A DNA stretch of 64,000 nt, from assembly GCA_025462735.1 (NCBI GenBank), contig JAOAPC010000024.1, forward strand, positions 248,001 through 312,000, in the 5' to 3' direction. This document shows positions 588-7,390 of this stretch, piece after piece (position 1 is the stretch's first letter; every line of letters begins with the position of its first letter). Made by a program: the position numbers and the translations under genes. Under the pieces are notes generated by a model, which worked only from the letters and a program-made list of their open reading frames with translations, was not told the origin of the DNA and did no database searches. The DNA comes from Acidobacteriaceae bacterium. Its GTDB lineage: Bacteria; Acidobacteriota; Terriglobia; Terriglobales; Acidobacteriaceae.

Positions 588-1445
588 ATGCGCATTACGA
601 ATCTGAAATCCACGATATTCCCCGGACGGCGGTTTAGCTGGATTGCTGCGCTGGCCTTTACTCTGCTGGTAATCGGACATGCTCGATTGAGTATCGGTCA
701 GACGACACAACCCAAGTCGCAACCAAAGACCTTCGCGTCCGCCGGAGAAGCTTGTACCGCTCTCTATCAAGCTGTCGAGAAGGACGATGAGCAGGCGGTG
801 GGAGCGATCCTGGGAGCAGGCGAAGACGTGACTTCGTCAAGCGACGAGGTCGAGGACAAACTGGAACACGAGCAGTTCAGTAAGAAATATGAGCAAATGC
901 ATCGTCTGGTTCGTGAACCCGATGGACGCACCATGCTGTACATCGGCGCAGAAAACTGGCCTTTCCCCATTCCGTTGGTCTCCAAGAATGGTAAATGGTA
1001 CTTCGATTCTGATAGTGGCAAGCAGGAAATCCTGTTCCGCAGAATTGGAGAAAACGAGGCGACCGCAATTCAAGTGTGCGAGGAATTCGCCATGGCAAAG
1101 AATGACGCGGGCGCAAAGGCAACTAGCGAAGACCCGATCACCCGATTCGCCGAAAACCTGGCCGCTGCCGGCGCGACAAATACCGACAATCAGGAGCCGA
1201 ATTTATTTCATGGGTACTACTTTCGAATTGTCAGGCCGAATTCTACGGCGGGAGCAAGTAACAGCAAAGGGATGGGAGGCTTGACGTTGGTCGCGTATCC
1301 AGCGGAGTACCGCGGATCGGGAGTCATGACCTTCGTAGTCACCCAGCATGGGGCCGTGTACGAAAAGAACCTTGGGCCCAAAACAGCCACGGTCGCACCA
1401 CGAATTAAGGGCCGTGCCGGTTCGAGTTGGCACCCGGCGGCATGA
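588..1445 (+). CDS. DUF2950 family exported protein
   Basis: This 285-residue protein has a basic N-terminus and a hydrophobic segment at about residues 17-37, consistent with a signal peptide or anchor. The rest matches the DUF2950 pattern as I know it: an early GEACTALYQAVEKDD segment, a central part ending KNGKWYFDSDSGKQEILFRR, and the late GYYFRIV and GVMTFVV blocks. The function of DUF2950 is not known. It follows the DUF3300 gene closely and probably shares its transcript. A GGAG sequence lies just upstream of the ATG. The family call is from memory of its sequence pattern. Confidence 0.85.
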   Translation: MRITNLKSTIFPGRRFSWIAALAFTLLVIGHARLSIGQTTQPKSQPKTFASAGEACTALYQAVEKDDEQAVGAILGAGEDVTSSSDEVEDKLEHEQFSKKYEQMHRLVREPDGRTMLYIGAENWPFPIPLVSKNGKWYFDSDSGKQEILFRRIGENEATAIQVCEEFAMAKNDAGAKATSEDPITRFAENLAAAGATNTDNQEPNLFHGYYFRIVRPNSTAGASNSKGMGGLTLVAYPAEYRGSGVMTFVVTQHGAVYEKNLGPKTATVAPRIKGRAGSSWHPAA

Positions 1446-1502: not shown

Positions 1503-2264
1503 ATGCTAACAGTGCGCGAGGATATTTTGCTTGAGAACGATGTGACCACGGAAAATCAGACTATACGGAAACAGACGGAGGCCCCGCTATTTCCTTTTTG
1601 GATCGAAGATCGGGGATTAAGCTTCTTCCTCGCGTTTCTCGTTCTCGTGACTGTTTTTGTTCCCATGGTTACCTTGTCACGCTATGGACGAATCGGACTC
1701 GGCCTAATTTTTGCACTCATGCTCTTCTCAGGGGCGGTCGCTACCATTCGCAAGAGAGTCCTGATGTATCTGATCATCGCGCTGACTGTCCTTGAGTTCA
1801 CAGCGGACTTGATCGTGGAATTCAATCCGTCGTTCGGCCACCAGGGCTGGGATACGGCGCTCAAGATATCCGGCCTCACCATTCTGGTGGTCATGACCTT
1901 GAGGCAAACGTTTCGTCCAGGGCCCGTTAATGTACACCGGGTGATGGGTGGGGTCGCTGCCTACCTGCTGATCGGAGTTACCTGGGCTTTCGCATATAAG
2001 CTTCTGATGGAGGAGCGGCCAGACGCCATCCATTTCCAGACATTCCTTGGCGGGCTTCCCACGGGTGAGCCGAGCCTTCTGATCTATTTCAGTTTCTCCA
2101 CCCTGACCACCGTTGGCTATGGCGACGCTTACCCGGTACATCGGGTTGCGCGGTCGCTGGCGACCGCAGAAGCGCTTATCGGACAACTCTATCCCGCGAT
2201 ACTGATCGCCACGCTAGTCGGGCTATCGTTGCAGGCGCGGTTTAGTGGGGATACGGGAGGCTGA
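1503..2264 (+). CDS. Potassium-channel-like membrane protein
   Basis: The 253-residue product has several hydrophobic segments (about 38-58, 64-82, 86-105, 118-134 and 146-168) followed by a pore module. The selectivity-filter signature TTVGYGD is at residues 202-208, followed by a last membrane segment (about 217-245). This is the Ion_trans_2 / voltage-gated-like K+ channel architecture, acting in the inner membrane. No C-terminal RCK or cyclic-nucleotide domain follows the pore, so gating cannot be read from the sequence. The gene follows DUF2950 by about 60 bases and precedes an aldo/keto reductase. The filter motif makes the channel call secure; ion specificity is inferred from it. Confidence 0.85.
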   Translation: MLTVREDILLENDVTTENQTIRKQTEAPLFPFWIEDRGLSFFLAFLVLVTVFVPMVTLSRYGRIGLGLIFALMLFSGAVATIRKRVLMYLIIALTVLEFTADLIVEFNPSFGHQGWDTALKISGLTILVVMTLRQTFRPGPVNVHRVMGGVAAYLLIGVTWAFAYKLLMEERPDAIHFQTFLGGLPTGEPSLLIYFSFSTLTTVGYGDAYPVHRVARSLATAEALIGQLYPAILIATLVGLSLQARFSGDTGG

Positions 2265-2324: not shown

Positions 2325-2330
2325 ATGAGT

Positions 2331-3218
2331 ATGCACGAGAAAAACGGGAACAACAGAAGTTTTTCGGCCGTTGCTAGTGGAACTGTTTCGCTTGGCGGTG
2401 AACTCACAGTCAACCGTCTCGGTTTCGGAGCTATGCGTATTACCGGCGAAGGAATCTGGGGACCACCGAAGGATCAGTCGGCAGCAATTGCTGTCCTCCG
2501 TCGTGCTATCGAACTGGGAGTCAACTTCATCGATACCGCTGACTCATATGGTCCCAACGTGAGTGAAGAGTTGATCGCGGAGGCGCTGGCACCCTATCCG
2601 AAGGACCTCGTGATCGCAACTAAGGGCGGATGGAATCGTCCCGGACCAAACCAATGGACCCACGATGCCAGCCCAGCACACTTGCGCGCTGCGGTCGAAG
2701 GCAGCCTGAAGAGACTGCGCCTTGATCGAATCGACGTTTACCAACTACACGTGCCCGATCCAGTGGTGCCTCTCGCTGCATCGATTGAAACTCTGGCGAA
2801 TATGCAAGCGGAAGGAAAGATCCGCTTGGTCGCGTTGTCGAACGTCACGGTCGAACACATCGAGCGTGCGCGCAACATTGTGCCGATCGTGTCGGTTCAG
2901 AACCGGTACAGTTTTGCCGATCGTGAATGGGACAACGTGGTTGATTATTGCGAACGCAATGGGATCGCATTCATTCCGTGGTTCCCGCTTGGAGCTGGGA
3001 CTGTGGCCGCGCAGGCGCTGGACAGGATCGCGAAGACACGACACGCGAAACCCATCCAAGTCGCGTTGGCATGGTTGCTGAAGCGGTCGCCAGTCATGCT
3101 GCCCATCCCGGGAACTTCCTCAATCGGACACCTTGAGGAAAATGTTCAGGCGGCGGGGTTGCAATTGACTGACGAAGAATATCTGGCACTCAACGGGGTT
3201 GCCATACTGGCTGCCTGA
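2331..3218 (+). CDS. Aldo/keto reductase (first of a tandem pair)
   Basis: This is a TIM-barrel NAD(P)H-dependent oxidoreductase of the AKR superfamily, about 295 residues. The family's active-site elements are visible: the Asp and Tyr of FIDTADSYGP, the Lys of VIATKGG and the His of YQLHVPD. The C-terminal region has the cofactor-binding pattern (PIPGTSSIGHLEEN). The short type of about 300 residues resembles broad-specificity cytoplasmic carbonyl reductases. The substrate is not predictable. The start is taken at the second ATG because of the Shine-Dalgarno spacing. A second, longer AKR follows on the same strand. Confidence 0.9.
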   Translation: MHEKNGNNRSFSAVASGTVSLGGELTVNRLGFGAMRITGEGIWGPPKDQSAAIAVLRRAIELGVNFIDTADSYGPNVSEELIAEALAPYPKDLVIATKGGWNRPGPNQWTHDASPAHLRAAVEGSLKRLRLDRIDVYQLHVPDPVVPLAASIETLANMQAEGKIRLVALSNVTVEHIERARNIVPIVSVQNRYSFADREWDNVVDYCERNGIAFIPWFPLGAGTVAAQALDRIAKTRHAKPIQVALAWLLKRSPVMLPIPGTSSIGHLEENVQAAGLQLTDEEYLALNGVAILAA

Positions 3219-3297
3219 ACCGAGCCAGCTTCGGGTAGCGCCGAGTGAGTTATTCGCGTTAAACAGCCAGAGAAAACAGCAATACTTTGGAGGAATC

Positions 3298-4335
3298 ATG
3301 CAGATAAAGAAACGTCCGCTTGGTTTGAGCGGGCTCGAGATTACGACGGTCGGTTTTGGAGCCTGGGCAATTGGAGGCGGCGGGTGGACCTACGGATGGG
3401 GACCGCAAGACGACAAAGAGTCCGAAGACACAATGCGCCGCGCCATTGAGCTGGGCGTTAATTGGATCGATACCGCCGCGGTATACGGCTTAGGCCATTC
3501 GGAAGAAGTTGTGGGACGTTTTGTGCGTTCACTGCCGGCTTCTCAGCGGCCGTTCGTCTTCACCAAATGCGGCCTGATTTGGAACGAGCAGAATCGAATG
3601 GAAGAGCCAAAGCGAGTGCTCAAGCCGGAATCCATTCGCGCCGAATGCGAGGCTTCGCTGCGCCGGCTCGGCGTTGAGCGCATCGATCTATATCAGTTCC
3701 ATTGGCCTGACGAGACGGGTACGCCGGTTGAGGATTCGTGGGCTGAAATGTTGCGCCTGATCGAAGAAGGAAAGGTGAGGCTTGGCGGCGTATCTAACTT
3801 CGACGTCGGTCTACTCGACCGCTGCGCTGCCGTTCGCCACGTGGATTCGTTGCAGCCACCTTTCTCTTTGATTCGTCGGGAGGTTGCGGCGCAGCAGATC
3901 CCGTGGTGCGAAGTGCACAAAACTGGCGTGATCTGCTATAGCCCAATGCAGTCCGGATTGTTGACGGACCGATTCAGCGCCGAACGGGTAACTCGAATGG
4001 CCGACGATGATTGGCGCCGCCGCTCTCCAGAGTTTAACCCACCCAACCTAAACCGAAATCTTGCGCTCCGCGATGCTCTGAAGCCAATCGCACAGCGACA
4101 CGGAACGTCGGTTTCCTCGATTGCGATCGCGTGGACGCTCAGCTGGCCTGGAGTTACGGCCGCGATCGTCGGAGCTCGCTCCCCTGAACAGGTGGATGGT
4201 TGGATCGGTGCCGGCAACCTGGAGTTGGGTCCGGCTGACCTCGACGAAATCGCTCGCGCGATCGAGCGAACCGGAGCGGGAACAGGTCCGTCGACACCGA
4301 ATTTGGAAGTTGCCGGACACAGGGATGTCGCGTAA
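3298..4335 (+). CDS. Aldo/keto reductase (second of a tandem pair)
   Basis: The 345-residue product is an AKR superfamily reductase with the Asp/Tyr motif WIDTAAVYG, the Lys of VFTKCGL and the His of YQFHWPD. It carries the longer loops of the Tas/AKR11-12 style proteins and a C-terminal AIVGARSPEQV cofactor segment. The start is set at the ATG that follows GGAGG by four bases; the frame stays open upstream but lacks family similarity there. It is clearly different in sequence from the reductase before it, so the two are neighbours by function rather than a recent duplication. The substrate is unknown. Confidence 0.9.
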   Translation: MQIKKRPLGLSGLEITTVGFGAWAIGGGGWTYGWGPQDDKESEDTMRRAIELGVNWIDTAAVYGLGHSEEVVGRFVRSLPASQRPFVFTKCGLIWNEQNRMEEPKRVLKPESIRAECEASLRRLGVERIDLYQFHWPDETGTPVEDSWAEMLRLIEEGKVRLGGVSNFDVGLLDRCAAVRHVDSLQPPFSLIRREVAAQQIPWCEVHKTGVICYSPMQSGLLTDRFSAERVTRMADDDWRRRSPEFNPPNLNRNLALRDALKPIAQRHGTSVSSIAIAWTLSWPGVTAAIVGARSPEQVDGWIGAGNLELGPADLDEIARAIERTGAGTGPSTPNLEVAGHRDVA

Positions 4336-4369
4336 GGCAGGATGAAATTAGTCAAGGCACAGTAAGCAA

Positions 4370-4855
4370 ATGTTAGTGATGTATCCAGGTGTTTTTCGTT
4401 TTCGTTCGACGGAGCTTCGACTGAGGTTGGGTCTTTCATGTGCGGTTATTCTCATGCTGGCTATCACTATGCTGGGAATAACCCCTCCCGCCGTAGCTCA
4501 GGACAATGGGGCGCAGCCTTCAGCGCGTCAGCGGCTTCAAGATATTCATACGCCGCAGTCGATCGACCAGGAACTCGCTCGTCTTACGAAAGATCTGGAG
4601 TTGACTCCGAAACAGCAGCAGCAGGTCCGAGCTCTGCTTCAGCAGCACCACGATAAGATTCAGGCGCTGCTCGATAAGAATCCGAAGGCTACCCGGCAGG
4701 AGCTCGGTCCACAGATTCACGCGATCAGCGACGAAACGCACCGCCACATTCACGCTCTGCTTACCGATCACCAGAAGGGATTGGAAAAGGCGATGCAGCA
4801 ACGTGAGCATAACGGGGACGAAAACAGGAGATCTGCTCCGCCTGCCGGCGATTAG
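4370..4855 (+). CDS. Spy/CpxP-like periplasmic helical protein (hypothetical)
   Basis: The 161-residue product has a long N-terminal signal-type region (hydrophobic to about residue 40, ending PPAVAQDN). After it comes a highly charged, Gln-rich helical region. The pattern TKDLELTPKQQQQVRALL is like the LTxxQ motif of Spy/CpxP-type periplasmic proteins, and a second helix carries HRHIHALLTDHQKG. I do not recognise a precise family. A role in envelope stress or metal handling would be in line with the family and with the multicopper oxidase two genes downstream, but this is inference. Confidence 0.65.
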   Translation: MLVMYPGVFRFRSTELRLRLGLSCAVILMLAITMLGITPPAVAQDNGAQPSARQRLQDIHTPQSIDQELARLTKDLELTPKQQQQVRALLQQHHDKIQALLDKNPKATRQELGPQIHAISDETHRHIHALLTDHQKGLEKAMQQREHNGDENRRSAPPAGD

Positions 4856-4867
4856 GAGGAGGAAACG

Positions 4868-5434
4868 ATGCCAAAAACTCTTTGTGTTCTGGCATTGATC
4901 GCGATCACAACCCCAGTTGGATATTCGCAGGGGACGGCAAGCGAATATGTCTCACCATCGGAAGCCGGTCCGCGGGGTAAAGCCCCAAAGATGCAGGTTC
5001 AATTGCTGAATCCGGGAGAACCTACGAAACAATATGCGGTCATCTTCTACCAGGGAGACGAGGCTTTTTCCGGACTACTGGAGTTCGCGGAGGAGTATCA
5101 CGTGACGAGTGCTCATTTCACTGCTATCGGGGCGCTGAGTGGAGCAACCTTGGGGTGGTTTGATCCCCAACGAAAAATGTACAAAAAGATTCCTATCGAC
5201 GGTCAGCACGAAGTGATTGGGATGAGCGGAGATATCGCGCTCTATCAAGGAAAGCCCGTGGTCCATGCGCACATGGTGGTGGGGAGTCCGGATGGAACAA
5301 CGCGCGCTGGCCATATTCTTGCTGCCTATGTATCCCCGACGCTGGAAGTGATGGTCACGGTCGATCCAGTAACGATGCAAAAACGGCTTGATCCGGCAAC
5401 CGATCTGACGTTGATTGATCCAGCTTTGAAGTAG
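4868..5434 (+). CDS. Secreted PPC/DUF296 domain protein
   Basis: The 188-residue product starts with a signal peptide (about residues 1-20, ending TPVGYSQG). Most of the rest, about 55-180, is a PPC (plants and prokaryotes conserved, DUF296) domain. The core features are present: YAVIFYQGDEAFSGLLEFA, TAIGALSGATLGWFD, and the His-containing VVHAHMVVGSPDG metal-site region. Bacterial PPC proteins are usually small cytoplasmic trimers, so the export signal is unusual. A strong AGGAGG precedes the ATG. The stop codon is two bases from the ATG of the multicopper oxidase, which implies co-translation and a shared compartment. Confidence 0.85.
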   Translation: MPKTLCVLALIAITTPVGYSQGTASEYVSPSEAGPRGKAPKMQVQLLNPGEPTKQYAVIFYQGDEAFSGLLEFAEEYHVTSAHFTAIGALSGATLGWFDPQRKMYKKIPIDGQHEVIGMSGDIALYQGKPVVHAHMVVGSPDGTTRAGHILAAYVSPTLEVMVTVDPVTMQKRLDPATDLTLIDPALK

Positions 5435-5436
5435 GT

Positions 5437-6948
5437 ATGGAGTTGTCGACAACGAATCACAAGACGACTAAATGCGCCCCTATCGCACTACTCACAGCCG
5501 CGCAGATACTACTCACAACTTTTGCGTTTGCACAGAGCGGTTCTTTGGCCGAGCCTCCGCAGGTGCGCGCAAAGAATCACGTTGTATCCCTTACTCTGCA
5601 TGCAGTGAATGAGAATGGGCGCGATGCCTTCGCTTTTGACGGCGCGAGTGTGGCTCCTGTGATCCGCGCCTCCCCTGGCGACATCCTCAAAATTACCTAC
5701 GTGAACGACCTTCCTGCCAAGTCTCCGGAGACTTGCGCGGTGAATCCCTGCATGGACATGACGAACTTGCATTTCCACGGAATGACCGTCTCGCCGAACG
5801 CGCCGCAGGATGACGTGCTCGGAATGCTGGCAATGCCTGGGCAGATATTGCACTACTCAGTTAAGATTCCGCGCGGCCATCCGCCGGGCTTGTTCTGGTA
5901 CCACACCCATCCCCACGGCGAGAGTCACCGACAAGCCTTGGATGGAATGTCCGGAGCAATCGTCATAGAGGGAATGGAACGTTATGTCCCCGAAGTAAGG
6001 CGGCTCCGTGAGCGTGTGCTGGTTGTGCGCGGCCGCTCCATTGAGCATGATCCGAATGCAGCTGAACTCAAGCACGACGTTGAAATCCCAGCTAAGGGAT
6101 GTGGAGGAGAAGCGGAGAAGGTCGAGGAAATCTTCACGGTGAATGGGACCCTTCGCCCGCGAATCGAGATTGCTCCTGACGAGCGGCAGTTCTGGCGCAT
6201 CGTGAATGCCTCCGCAGATCGCTACTTGGATTTGCAACTCGATGGGCAGACTTTAGAGATCGTGGCGCTTGATGGGATGCCGCTCGCATACCACCAACCT
6301 AAAGTTTCAACACGCACCACCAATCACTTACTACTCGCACCTGCGGGACGGCTCGAAGCTATCGTTACTGGTCCACCGCCGGGAGCACATAGCGCTTTAC
6401 GTACGCTTTGCGTAGATACTGGGCCCGACGGCGACCCCAATCCGGAGATGGTGCTGGCAGATGTGGTGCCGCCCACTTCAGATCGAGCGACTTCAAATCG
6501 GGCGCCTGAGCAGGCGCACGCTGTCGATCACCGTCGGCCGGCTTACAAGCCGATCGACGTTGAGCCACTCAAAAAGGTTGCGCCGGACTTCACCGTCACG
6601 TTTACGGAGGATAAAAACGGCTTCTACATCAATGGCCGCAAGTTCGCGGCAGATGCACCTCCAATGACGACCGCTCGCATAGGCACTTATCAGCACTGGC
6701 GTATCGTCAACCAGAGTCGAGAACTACACCCCTTCCACATACACCAAATCCATTTCCTGGCCTATGCAGAGAATGGAGTTCCGATCGCACATCCTGCTTG
6801 GCTGGATACGGTGAATGTTCCTGTTCGCGGCTCCGTTGATGTGATCTTGGACCTTACCAACCCCGTTATCAAAGGTATGGCGGTATTTCATTGTCATCTG
6901 CTGAATCACGAAGACAAGGGAATGATGGCCAAGATCCTGTTCAAGTAA
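5437..6948 (+). CDS. Multicopper oxidase
   Basis: This 503-residue exported cupredoxin-type oxidase has an N-terminal hydrophobic stretch (about 14-32, ending FAFAQSG). All four copper-ligand motifs are present: HFHG at 112-115, WYHTHPHGE at 154-162, HPFHIH at 431-436, and HCHLLNHEDKGMM from 485. Cys486, His491 and Met496 are the type 1 copper ligands. The Met axial ligand is typical of metallo-oxidases and CotA/CueO-like enzymes. The substrate could be Cu(I), Fe(II), Mn(II) or phenolics and cannot be decided from this sequence. It directly follows the secreted PPC gene, so the two are probably one operon. Confidence 0.92.
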   Translation: MELSTTNHKTTKCAPIALLTAAQILLTTFAFAQSGSLAEPPQVRAKNHVVSLTLHAVNENGRDAFAFDGASVAPVIRASPGDILKITYVNDLPAKSPETCAVNPCMDMTNLHFHGMTVSPNAPQDDVLGMLAMPGQILHYSVKIPRGHPPGLFWYHTHPHGESHRQALDGMSGAIVIEGMERYVPEVRRLRERVLVVRGRSIEHDPNAAELKHDVEIPAKGCGGEAEKVEEIFTVNGTLRPRIEIAPDERQFWRIVNASADRYLDLQLDGQTLEIVALDGMPLAYHQPKVSTRTTNHLLLAPAGRLEAIVTGPPPGAHSALRTLCVDTGPDGDPNPEMVLADVVPPTSDRATSNRAPEQAHAVDHRRPAYKPIDVEPLKKVAPDFTVTFTEDKNGFYINGRKFAADAPPMTTARIGTYQHWRIVNQSRELHPFHIHQIHFLAYAENGVPIAHPAWLDTVNVPVRGSVDVILDLTNPVIKGMAVFHCHLLNHEDKGMMAKILFK

Positions 6949-7067
6949 TGGGAAACCGGGACCGCAGTGTTGATTGCAGGCCGAACCTCGAGTGAGACTC
7001 ACGAATACAGTAAGGTGTGAGGCGCGCTTTCTTATGCGTTGCAGTGAAACGGCACGAAACAAAAACT

Positions 7068-7157
7068 TGGCGGAGAGAGTGGGATTCGAACCCACGTTAG
7101 AGTTTCCCCTAAACACGCTTTCCAAGCGTGCGCCTTCAGCCACTCGGCCATCTCTCC
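7068..7157 (-). tRNA. tRNA-Ser (anticodon GGA)
   Basis: Read on the minus strand it begins GGAGAGATGGCCGAGTGG and ends in a T arm (GGGTTCGAATCCC) and the matching TCTCTCC strand, discriminator G and an encoded CCA. The anticodon loop CTTGGAAAG gives GGA. A long variable arm (about TTTAGGGGAAACTCTAA) is the class II feature expected of tRNA-Ser. Confidence 0.96.
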
Positions 7158-7390
7158 GGCGCTATTACCCTAACGGCTGATCACGCGTTGGGCAAGAAGG
7201 AGCTTCGGTCGTCAACCAGAAGCACTGGACAAGCCTGCTGATCTCGATTCTATGGGGATGAGTCTCCGGTCGCAACCCGCCCCCAATTTGCCCGCGTTGG
7301 ATACAAATGGAATGCGATCAATATGGAGAATCGACAACTCTTTTCGCGAAATTTTGACTAATTTGACTGTTGCGAGTACGCGAGATTCAG

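Follow-up and report, generated by a model that had tools for sequence, protein, structure and literature searches.

Gene neighbourhood and predicted fold of a leader-bearing PPC/DUF296 protein encoded beside a multicopper oxidase gene in an Acidobacteriaceae bacterium

In the 64,000-nucleotide stretch analysed here (contig JAOAPC010000024.1, positions 248,001 to 312,000, hereafter the window), a gene encoding a PPC/DUF296 protein with a predicted export leader is directly followed by a gene for a multicopper oxidase (MCO). This raises the question of whether the PPC protein serves the oxidase, as proposed in the first-pass annotation, or has a task of its own. With moderate confidence, and on the strength of sequence comparison and a modelled structure, we favour the latter: the protein would be an exported, metal-dependent enzyme with the fold of acetolactate decarboxylase (ALDC) and PTD012, and its substrate, outside the cytoplasm, would be a small carbonyl compound or oxo-acid. 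A dedicated partnership of PPC protein and MCO is not likely.

The PPC gene and its surroundings

The following features were assigned in the window:

588..1445, plus strand: DUF2950 protein (Pfam; upstream of the MCO gene in 7 of 33 MCO loci)
1503..2264, plus strand: Ion-channel-domain protein (Ion_trans_2; Pfam; syntenic in L191 and L194)
2325..3218, plus strand: aldo/keto reductase AKR1 (Pfam; recurs beside the MCO gene in relatives)
3295..4335, plus strand: second aldo/keto reductase (Pfam; start uncertain, longest ORF from 3199)
4370..4855, plus strand: Spy/CpxP-like small exported protein, 12 bp upstream of the PPC gene (weak assignment; Metal_resist and Spy profiles)
4868..5434, plus strand: PPC/PCC (PF03479, DUF296) protein, predicted to be exported, 188 aa (Pfam E 2.3e-27; model pLDDT 94.8)
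4868..4927, plus strand: predicted signal peptide, residues 1-20 of the PPC protein (heuristic; cut site by eye; ribosome-binding sequence)
5264..5314, plus strand: codons of the presumed metal triad (His133, 5264-5266; His135, 5270-5272; His149, 5312-5314; invariant in 70/70 rows)
5437..6948, plus strand: laccase-like three-domain MCO with leader, 503 aa (Pfam, PDB matches, copper motifs)

The PPC protein belongs to PF03479 (residues 55-164; 96.1 bits, curated cut-off 25) and is the sole match to this family found by the Pfam search of the source genome. Its leader was called by a home-made signal-peptide heuristic, whose script placed the cut at position 14, whereas S20/Q21 is our reading by eye. 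Due to the sequence aggaggagg located 5' of the ATG at 4868, the start and the encoded leader are credible. The presence of a PPC gene with an export leader is thus confirmed by the Pfam match, the heuristic and the ribosome-binding sequence, and so is its two-base distance from the MCO gene, with the stop codon TAG at 5432-5434 and the ATG of the oxidase at 5437 on the same strand. The mature protein is acidic (pI 5.6) and carries the histidine motif VVHAHMVVG at residues 131-139.

The heuristic was positive for all three products, i.e., the Spy-like, PPC and MCO proteins. A scan of positions 4200-7200 revealed no promoter-like site, and terminator-like sites occurred at the rate of shuffled sequence; a common PPC-MCO transcript is therefore deduced from the spacing only. 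We consider it probable that the Spy-like, PPC and MCO genes form one operon, and the PPC protein is likely co-expressed with the other two in the source genome.

The oxidase is a genuine member of its family, with three cupredoxin domains (Cu-oxidase_2, Cu-oxidase_3 and Cu-oxidase, all over cut-off) and four copper motifs (HFHG at 112, HTHPH at 156, HPFHIH at 431 and HCHLLNHEDKGM at 485). Its top PDB matches are the laccase-like 6wcn, 6w2k and 2xu9 (E 6.7e-41 to 1.5e-38). It is not CueO itself, as the NCBIfam CueO model scored it at 107.7 bits (cut-off 525), and a twin-arginine pattern was not found in it. The product of 4370-4855 stays below the cut-offs of Pfam Metal_resist (17.5 bits, cut-off 29.2) and NCBIfam Spy (E 6.9e-6, 26.4 bits, cut-off 174), and is thus named "Spy-like" without assignment to Spy/CpxP. 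A glycine/histidine-rich ORF (27-539) is situated immediately 5' of the DUF2950 gene, and a tRNA-Ser (gga) gene (7068-7157, minus strand) immediately downstream of the MCO gene.

The leader-bearing PPC subfamily, its invariant residues and its neighbours

When named genome contigs were searched with 13 aligned PPC proteins, 102 relatives were confirmed; the best 80 of these, from Acidobacteriota, Verrucomicrobiota and Bacteroidota, were kept as loci. The leader heuristic was positive in 72 of these 80, compared to 124 of 499 neighbouring ORFs as background, where several starts were allowed for the PPC genes and one for the background. Three of the eight exceptions are cut by a contig end (L105, L149 and L150) and L100 is a fusion; L101, L103, L109 and L112 have no such excuse. 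Since the 80 loci were picked by peptide patterns derived from exported members, they are uninformative on the exported share of PPC proteins. In a phylum sample, a PPC match was observed in 44 of 396 genomes, and 11 of 30 fetched loci, including the window, passed the heuristic (L004 is a likely miss, L025 a doubtful pass). The subfamily with the leader is marked by a GxAPxM motif N-terminal to the PPC domain. The window protein belongs to this subfamily, which was found in three phyla, and the initial view that PPC domains are normally cytoplasmic or nuclear is accordingly too strong.

PPC proteins 75-89% identical to that of the window (L079-L094, L123) come from MAGs that are labelled Acidobacteriota in some cases and Verrucomicrobiota in others, which reflects either phylum-to-phylum transfer or mis-binned contigs. 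L086 contains a second PPC gene (5977-7047; PF03479 E 1.3e-27) in tandem after the exported one, with a relative at the equivalent position in L149. Broken-looking copies were observed in L017 and L049 (in G233 split across two frames, in G420 with two stops inside the match).

His133, His135, His149, Glu115 and Glu160 are invariant in all 70 rows of the PPC alignment A3, 15 of which were chosen as leaderless-looking (five plasmid rows were dropped from A2 to A3). The pattern HxH...GH is common to leaderless members, too. Judged from this conservation, and from a relative of known structure (2h6l) titled "metal-containing", the histidines are likely metal ligands, as the first-pass annotation had suggested, and the metal is probably zinc.

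The mature protein was modelled confidently (pTM 0.88) in the PPC fold, with Z 15.8-21.3 to seven PPC structures. Next in rank are nine ALDC entries (Z 6.8-10.3, 108-120 residues, 2.9-3.9 A), five of them at Z 9.3 or more and four below 8. The ALDC core fold is recovered over the C-terminal half of ALDC only, so that residues of the ALDC N-terminal half are missing. PTD012 follows at Z 5.4, a range that it shares with cupins and lectins. In the Foldseek search, 4bt2 was matched at E 5.4e-4, and cupins, with lower TM-scores, were interleaved by E-value with the later ALDC rows. The His triad can be recognised in all five PDB alignments displayed; hhalign pairs the HxH and GGH of the PPC protein with those of ALDC, at a probability of just 8.8. 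HxH...H is common to eight ALDC sequences, with L159, L161 and L163 left out of that alignment. Membership of the ALDC family was rejected, since PF03479 is the only Pfam report for the window protein at E 0.01 and PF03306 (ALDC) does not match; ALDC is invoked as an enzyme that the PPC protein may work like. L161-L163 are Acidobacteriota proteins with a weak PF03306 match and a THxH...GHV motif, those of L161 and L162 with leader-like N-termini.

Eighteen loci whose PPC protein is roughly 75% or more identical to that of the window constitute a close clade. Within five genes (ORFs of at least 90 aa), 10 of them have an aldo/keto reductase, 8 have a 3-hydroxyisobutyrate-type dehydrogenase, 4 have an ABM monooxygenase and 2 have an MCO; reductase, dehydrogenase or ABM is present in 13 of the 18. 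At the density of the source genome (17 PF00248 matches, some of which are fragments), about 0.7 reductases would be expected, the 18 loci being related and thus not independent trials. The order dehydrogenase-PPC-ABM-reductase recurs in L081, L084, L087 and L092, with two extra ORFs between ABM and reductase in case of L081. Outside the close clade, neighbourhoods are mixed, and any of the three genes was found in 11 of 62 loci. The usual partners, reductase and dehydrogenase, appear leaderless by eye, so their compartment need not match that of the PPC protein. In L100, a single ORF encodes an amidohydrolase domain (106-469) followed by a PPC domain (531-640); this predicted exported fusion (L100:4498-6492) stems from one contig only, of a Candidatus Udaeobacter MAG.

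The invariant Glu115 and Glu160, the decarboxylase fold and the amidohydrolase fusion suggest an enzyme. The protein would be exported via its leader and work outside the cytoplasm; the metal would be bound by His133, His135 and His149, and Glu115 and Glu160 would complete the site. Small oxo-acids or carbonyl compounds are the putative substrate class, in keeping with subfamily genes that occur in carbonyl/redox clusters with aldo/keto reductase, 3-hydroxyisobutyrate-type dehydrogenase, ABM monooxygenase and bicupin genes, and in one case are fused to an amidohydrolase. The conserved triad, together with an activity that is only putative and a Spy-like gene 12 bp upstream, would also suit an exported non-catalytic protein with a metal-binding or structural role, e.g., a zinc or copper buffer or a Spy-like envelope-stress protein. 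We regard this as rather unlikely in view of the two further invariant glutamates, the fold and the fusion; in addition, tblastn at 1e-5 detected no Spy homolog in any of the 80 PPC loci.

Linkage of PPC and oxidase genes

An MCO gene was detected in 2 of the 80 PPC loci, L085 and L088, by an HMM built from 15 sequences that include those of L085 and L088 themselves. Flanks of 4 kb or more on either side were available for 55 of the 80, and one of these 55 contains an MCO gene; altogether, the HMM found none in the DNA available for 78 of 80. No MCO gene was observed in 16 PPC neighbourhoods of the phylum sample (L032-L047, partly overlapping the 80 loci, as contigs of equal length show), and in 7 plasmid PPC neighbourhoods, out of 111 matching records, MCO was neither annotated nor found by the HMM.

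Viewed from the oxidase side, 32 of 398 family genomes, including the source genome, contain an MCO match at E 1e-90 or better. Of 33 MCO loci from the 31 other genomes (23 of these loci are longer than 12 kb), 31 had no PPC gene in the DNA available. It adjoins the MCO gene at L191 (on the contig of L085) and L194 (on that of L088), in the order MCO-PPC, opposite to that of the window. A PPC match is absent from 20 of the 31 genomes and present in 11 (6 of 17 among those of good quality). In the genus of the window, G396, G397 and G399 have PPC matches (two partial) and no MCO match.

More frequent in the vicinity of the MCO genes are an aldo/keto reductase of at least 74% identity (12 of 33 loci), a bicupin (8 of 33) and DUF2950 (7 of 33). 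The order DUF2950-AKR1-MCO occurs in L188, L190, L193 and L195 with no PPC gene nearby, PPC copies being located elsewhere in the genome of L193 (G752). For this reason the PPC gene seems to have joined a reductase-oxidase block at a later stage. Occurrence of the PPC-MCO pair in two different orders counts against this reading and may indicate a functional tie. The resolution of the MCO tree (29 of 34 loci including the window; L198 and L217-L219 left out due to contig-end cuts and L189 due to the length filter) and of the PPC tree (27 rows, one from the window and 26 from the 80 loci) is too poor to tell a single from a repeated origin of the adjacency. In L199, a gene (2281-2682) whose product is 80% identical to the Spy-like protein of the window is separated by some 3.3 kb from that of an MCO ortholog, with no PPC gene present.

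A PPC-MCO partnership as a general rule, tested from both sides, was rejected on these counts (2/80, 2/33 and 20/31), and the conserved linkage or co-occurrence with MCO that would characterise a copper chaperone or regulator was not found (2/80, 2/33 and 11/31). Both Spy-like proteins and MCOs have a link to copper stress. This link, the two-base spacing and the reversed pair in L085/L191 and L088/L194, which amounts to two arrangements, are what could be cited for an exported PPC protein that binds copper through its histidines and delivers it to, or regulates, the oxidase. We nevertheless consider such a role improbable given the scarcity of linked loci on either side, the 20 MCO genomes devoid of a PPC match, the three congeneric genomes with PPC and no MCO match, and a His triad that leaderless PPC proteins share. 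The idea of a metal-delivery or regulatory partner, put forward from the window alone, thus fails in relatives; the survey of secreted PPC neighbours suggested along with it returned 78 of 80 loci with no MCO seen, the very outcome named in advance as speaking against it. That the protein is a cytoplasmic DNA-binding protein with an unused leader, in line with the database label "PPC domain-containing DNA-binding protein" of its relatives, is hardly credible in view of the leader in 72 of 80 relatives, the ribosome-binding sequence at the expected start and the acidic mature protein.

Probably, the position of the PPC gene beside the copper oxidase gene is a local gene arrangement and not a dedicated partnership. 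A spacing of two bases does not count as evidence for a partnership before relatives have been checked from both sides.

Comparison with known systems

Among the matches listed for open-licence PMC articles, some of the queries being loose, no paper dealt with an exported PPC protein or an enzymatic prokaryotic one; DUF296 papers listed there are about AHL genes of plants or other domains with the name PPC, or mention the subject in passing. PPC domains as in the window are present in 3htn (B. thetaiotaomicron BT_1116), 3hwu (R. eutropha), 2dt4 (PH0802) and 2h6l (AF0104), which share its fold (Z 18.5-21.3) and His triad at 24-30% identity over the aligned part. These entries are annotated as putative DNA-binding or hypothetical and carry titles that state no function. 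Residue numbering from 43 in 3htn and from 33 in 3hwu hints that these constructs, too, lack an N-terminal leader. BT1116, the protein of 3htn, appears as an entry in an iron-stimulon table (PMC10434189).

Automatic annotation names prokaryotic PPC/DUF296 proteins DNA-binding, a label that becomes doubtful for a subfamily whose members combine a predicted leader with invariant residues of a metal-type site and the predicted fold of a decarboxylase. In SCOP, the PPC, ALDC and PTD012 folds are placed in one group. ALDC (PF03306; 4bt2, 6j92, 5yho) and PPC have a fold of about 109 residues and the pattern HxH...GGH in common. PTD012/C11orf54 (1xcr), a 3-dehydro-L-gulonate decarboxylase, is far larger than PPC, with 313 residues in the chain; in this decarboxylase, zinc is held by three conserved histidines, and its structure is related to ALDC (PMC12435205, a commentary). 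It is tempting to speculate, though we lean slightly against so wide a claim, that PPC/DUF296 proteins of prokaryotes, including those with an export leader, are small decarboxylases or lyases that depend on a metal and are akin to ALDC and PTD012, and that the name "DNA-binding" was carried over from plant AHL proteins. If so, plant transcription factors would have recruited their PPC domain from an enzyme.
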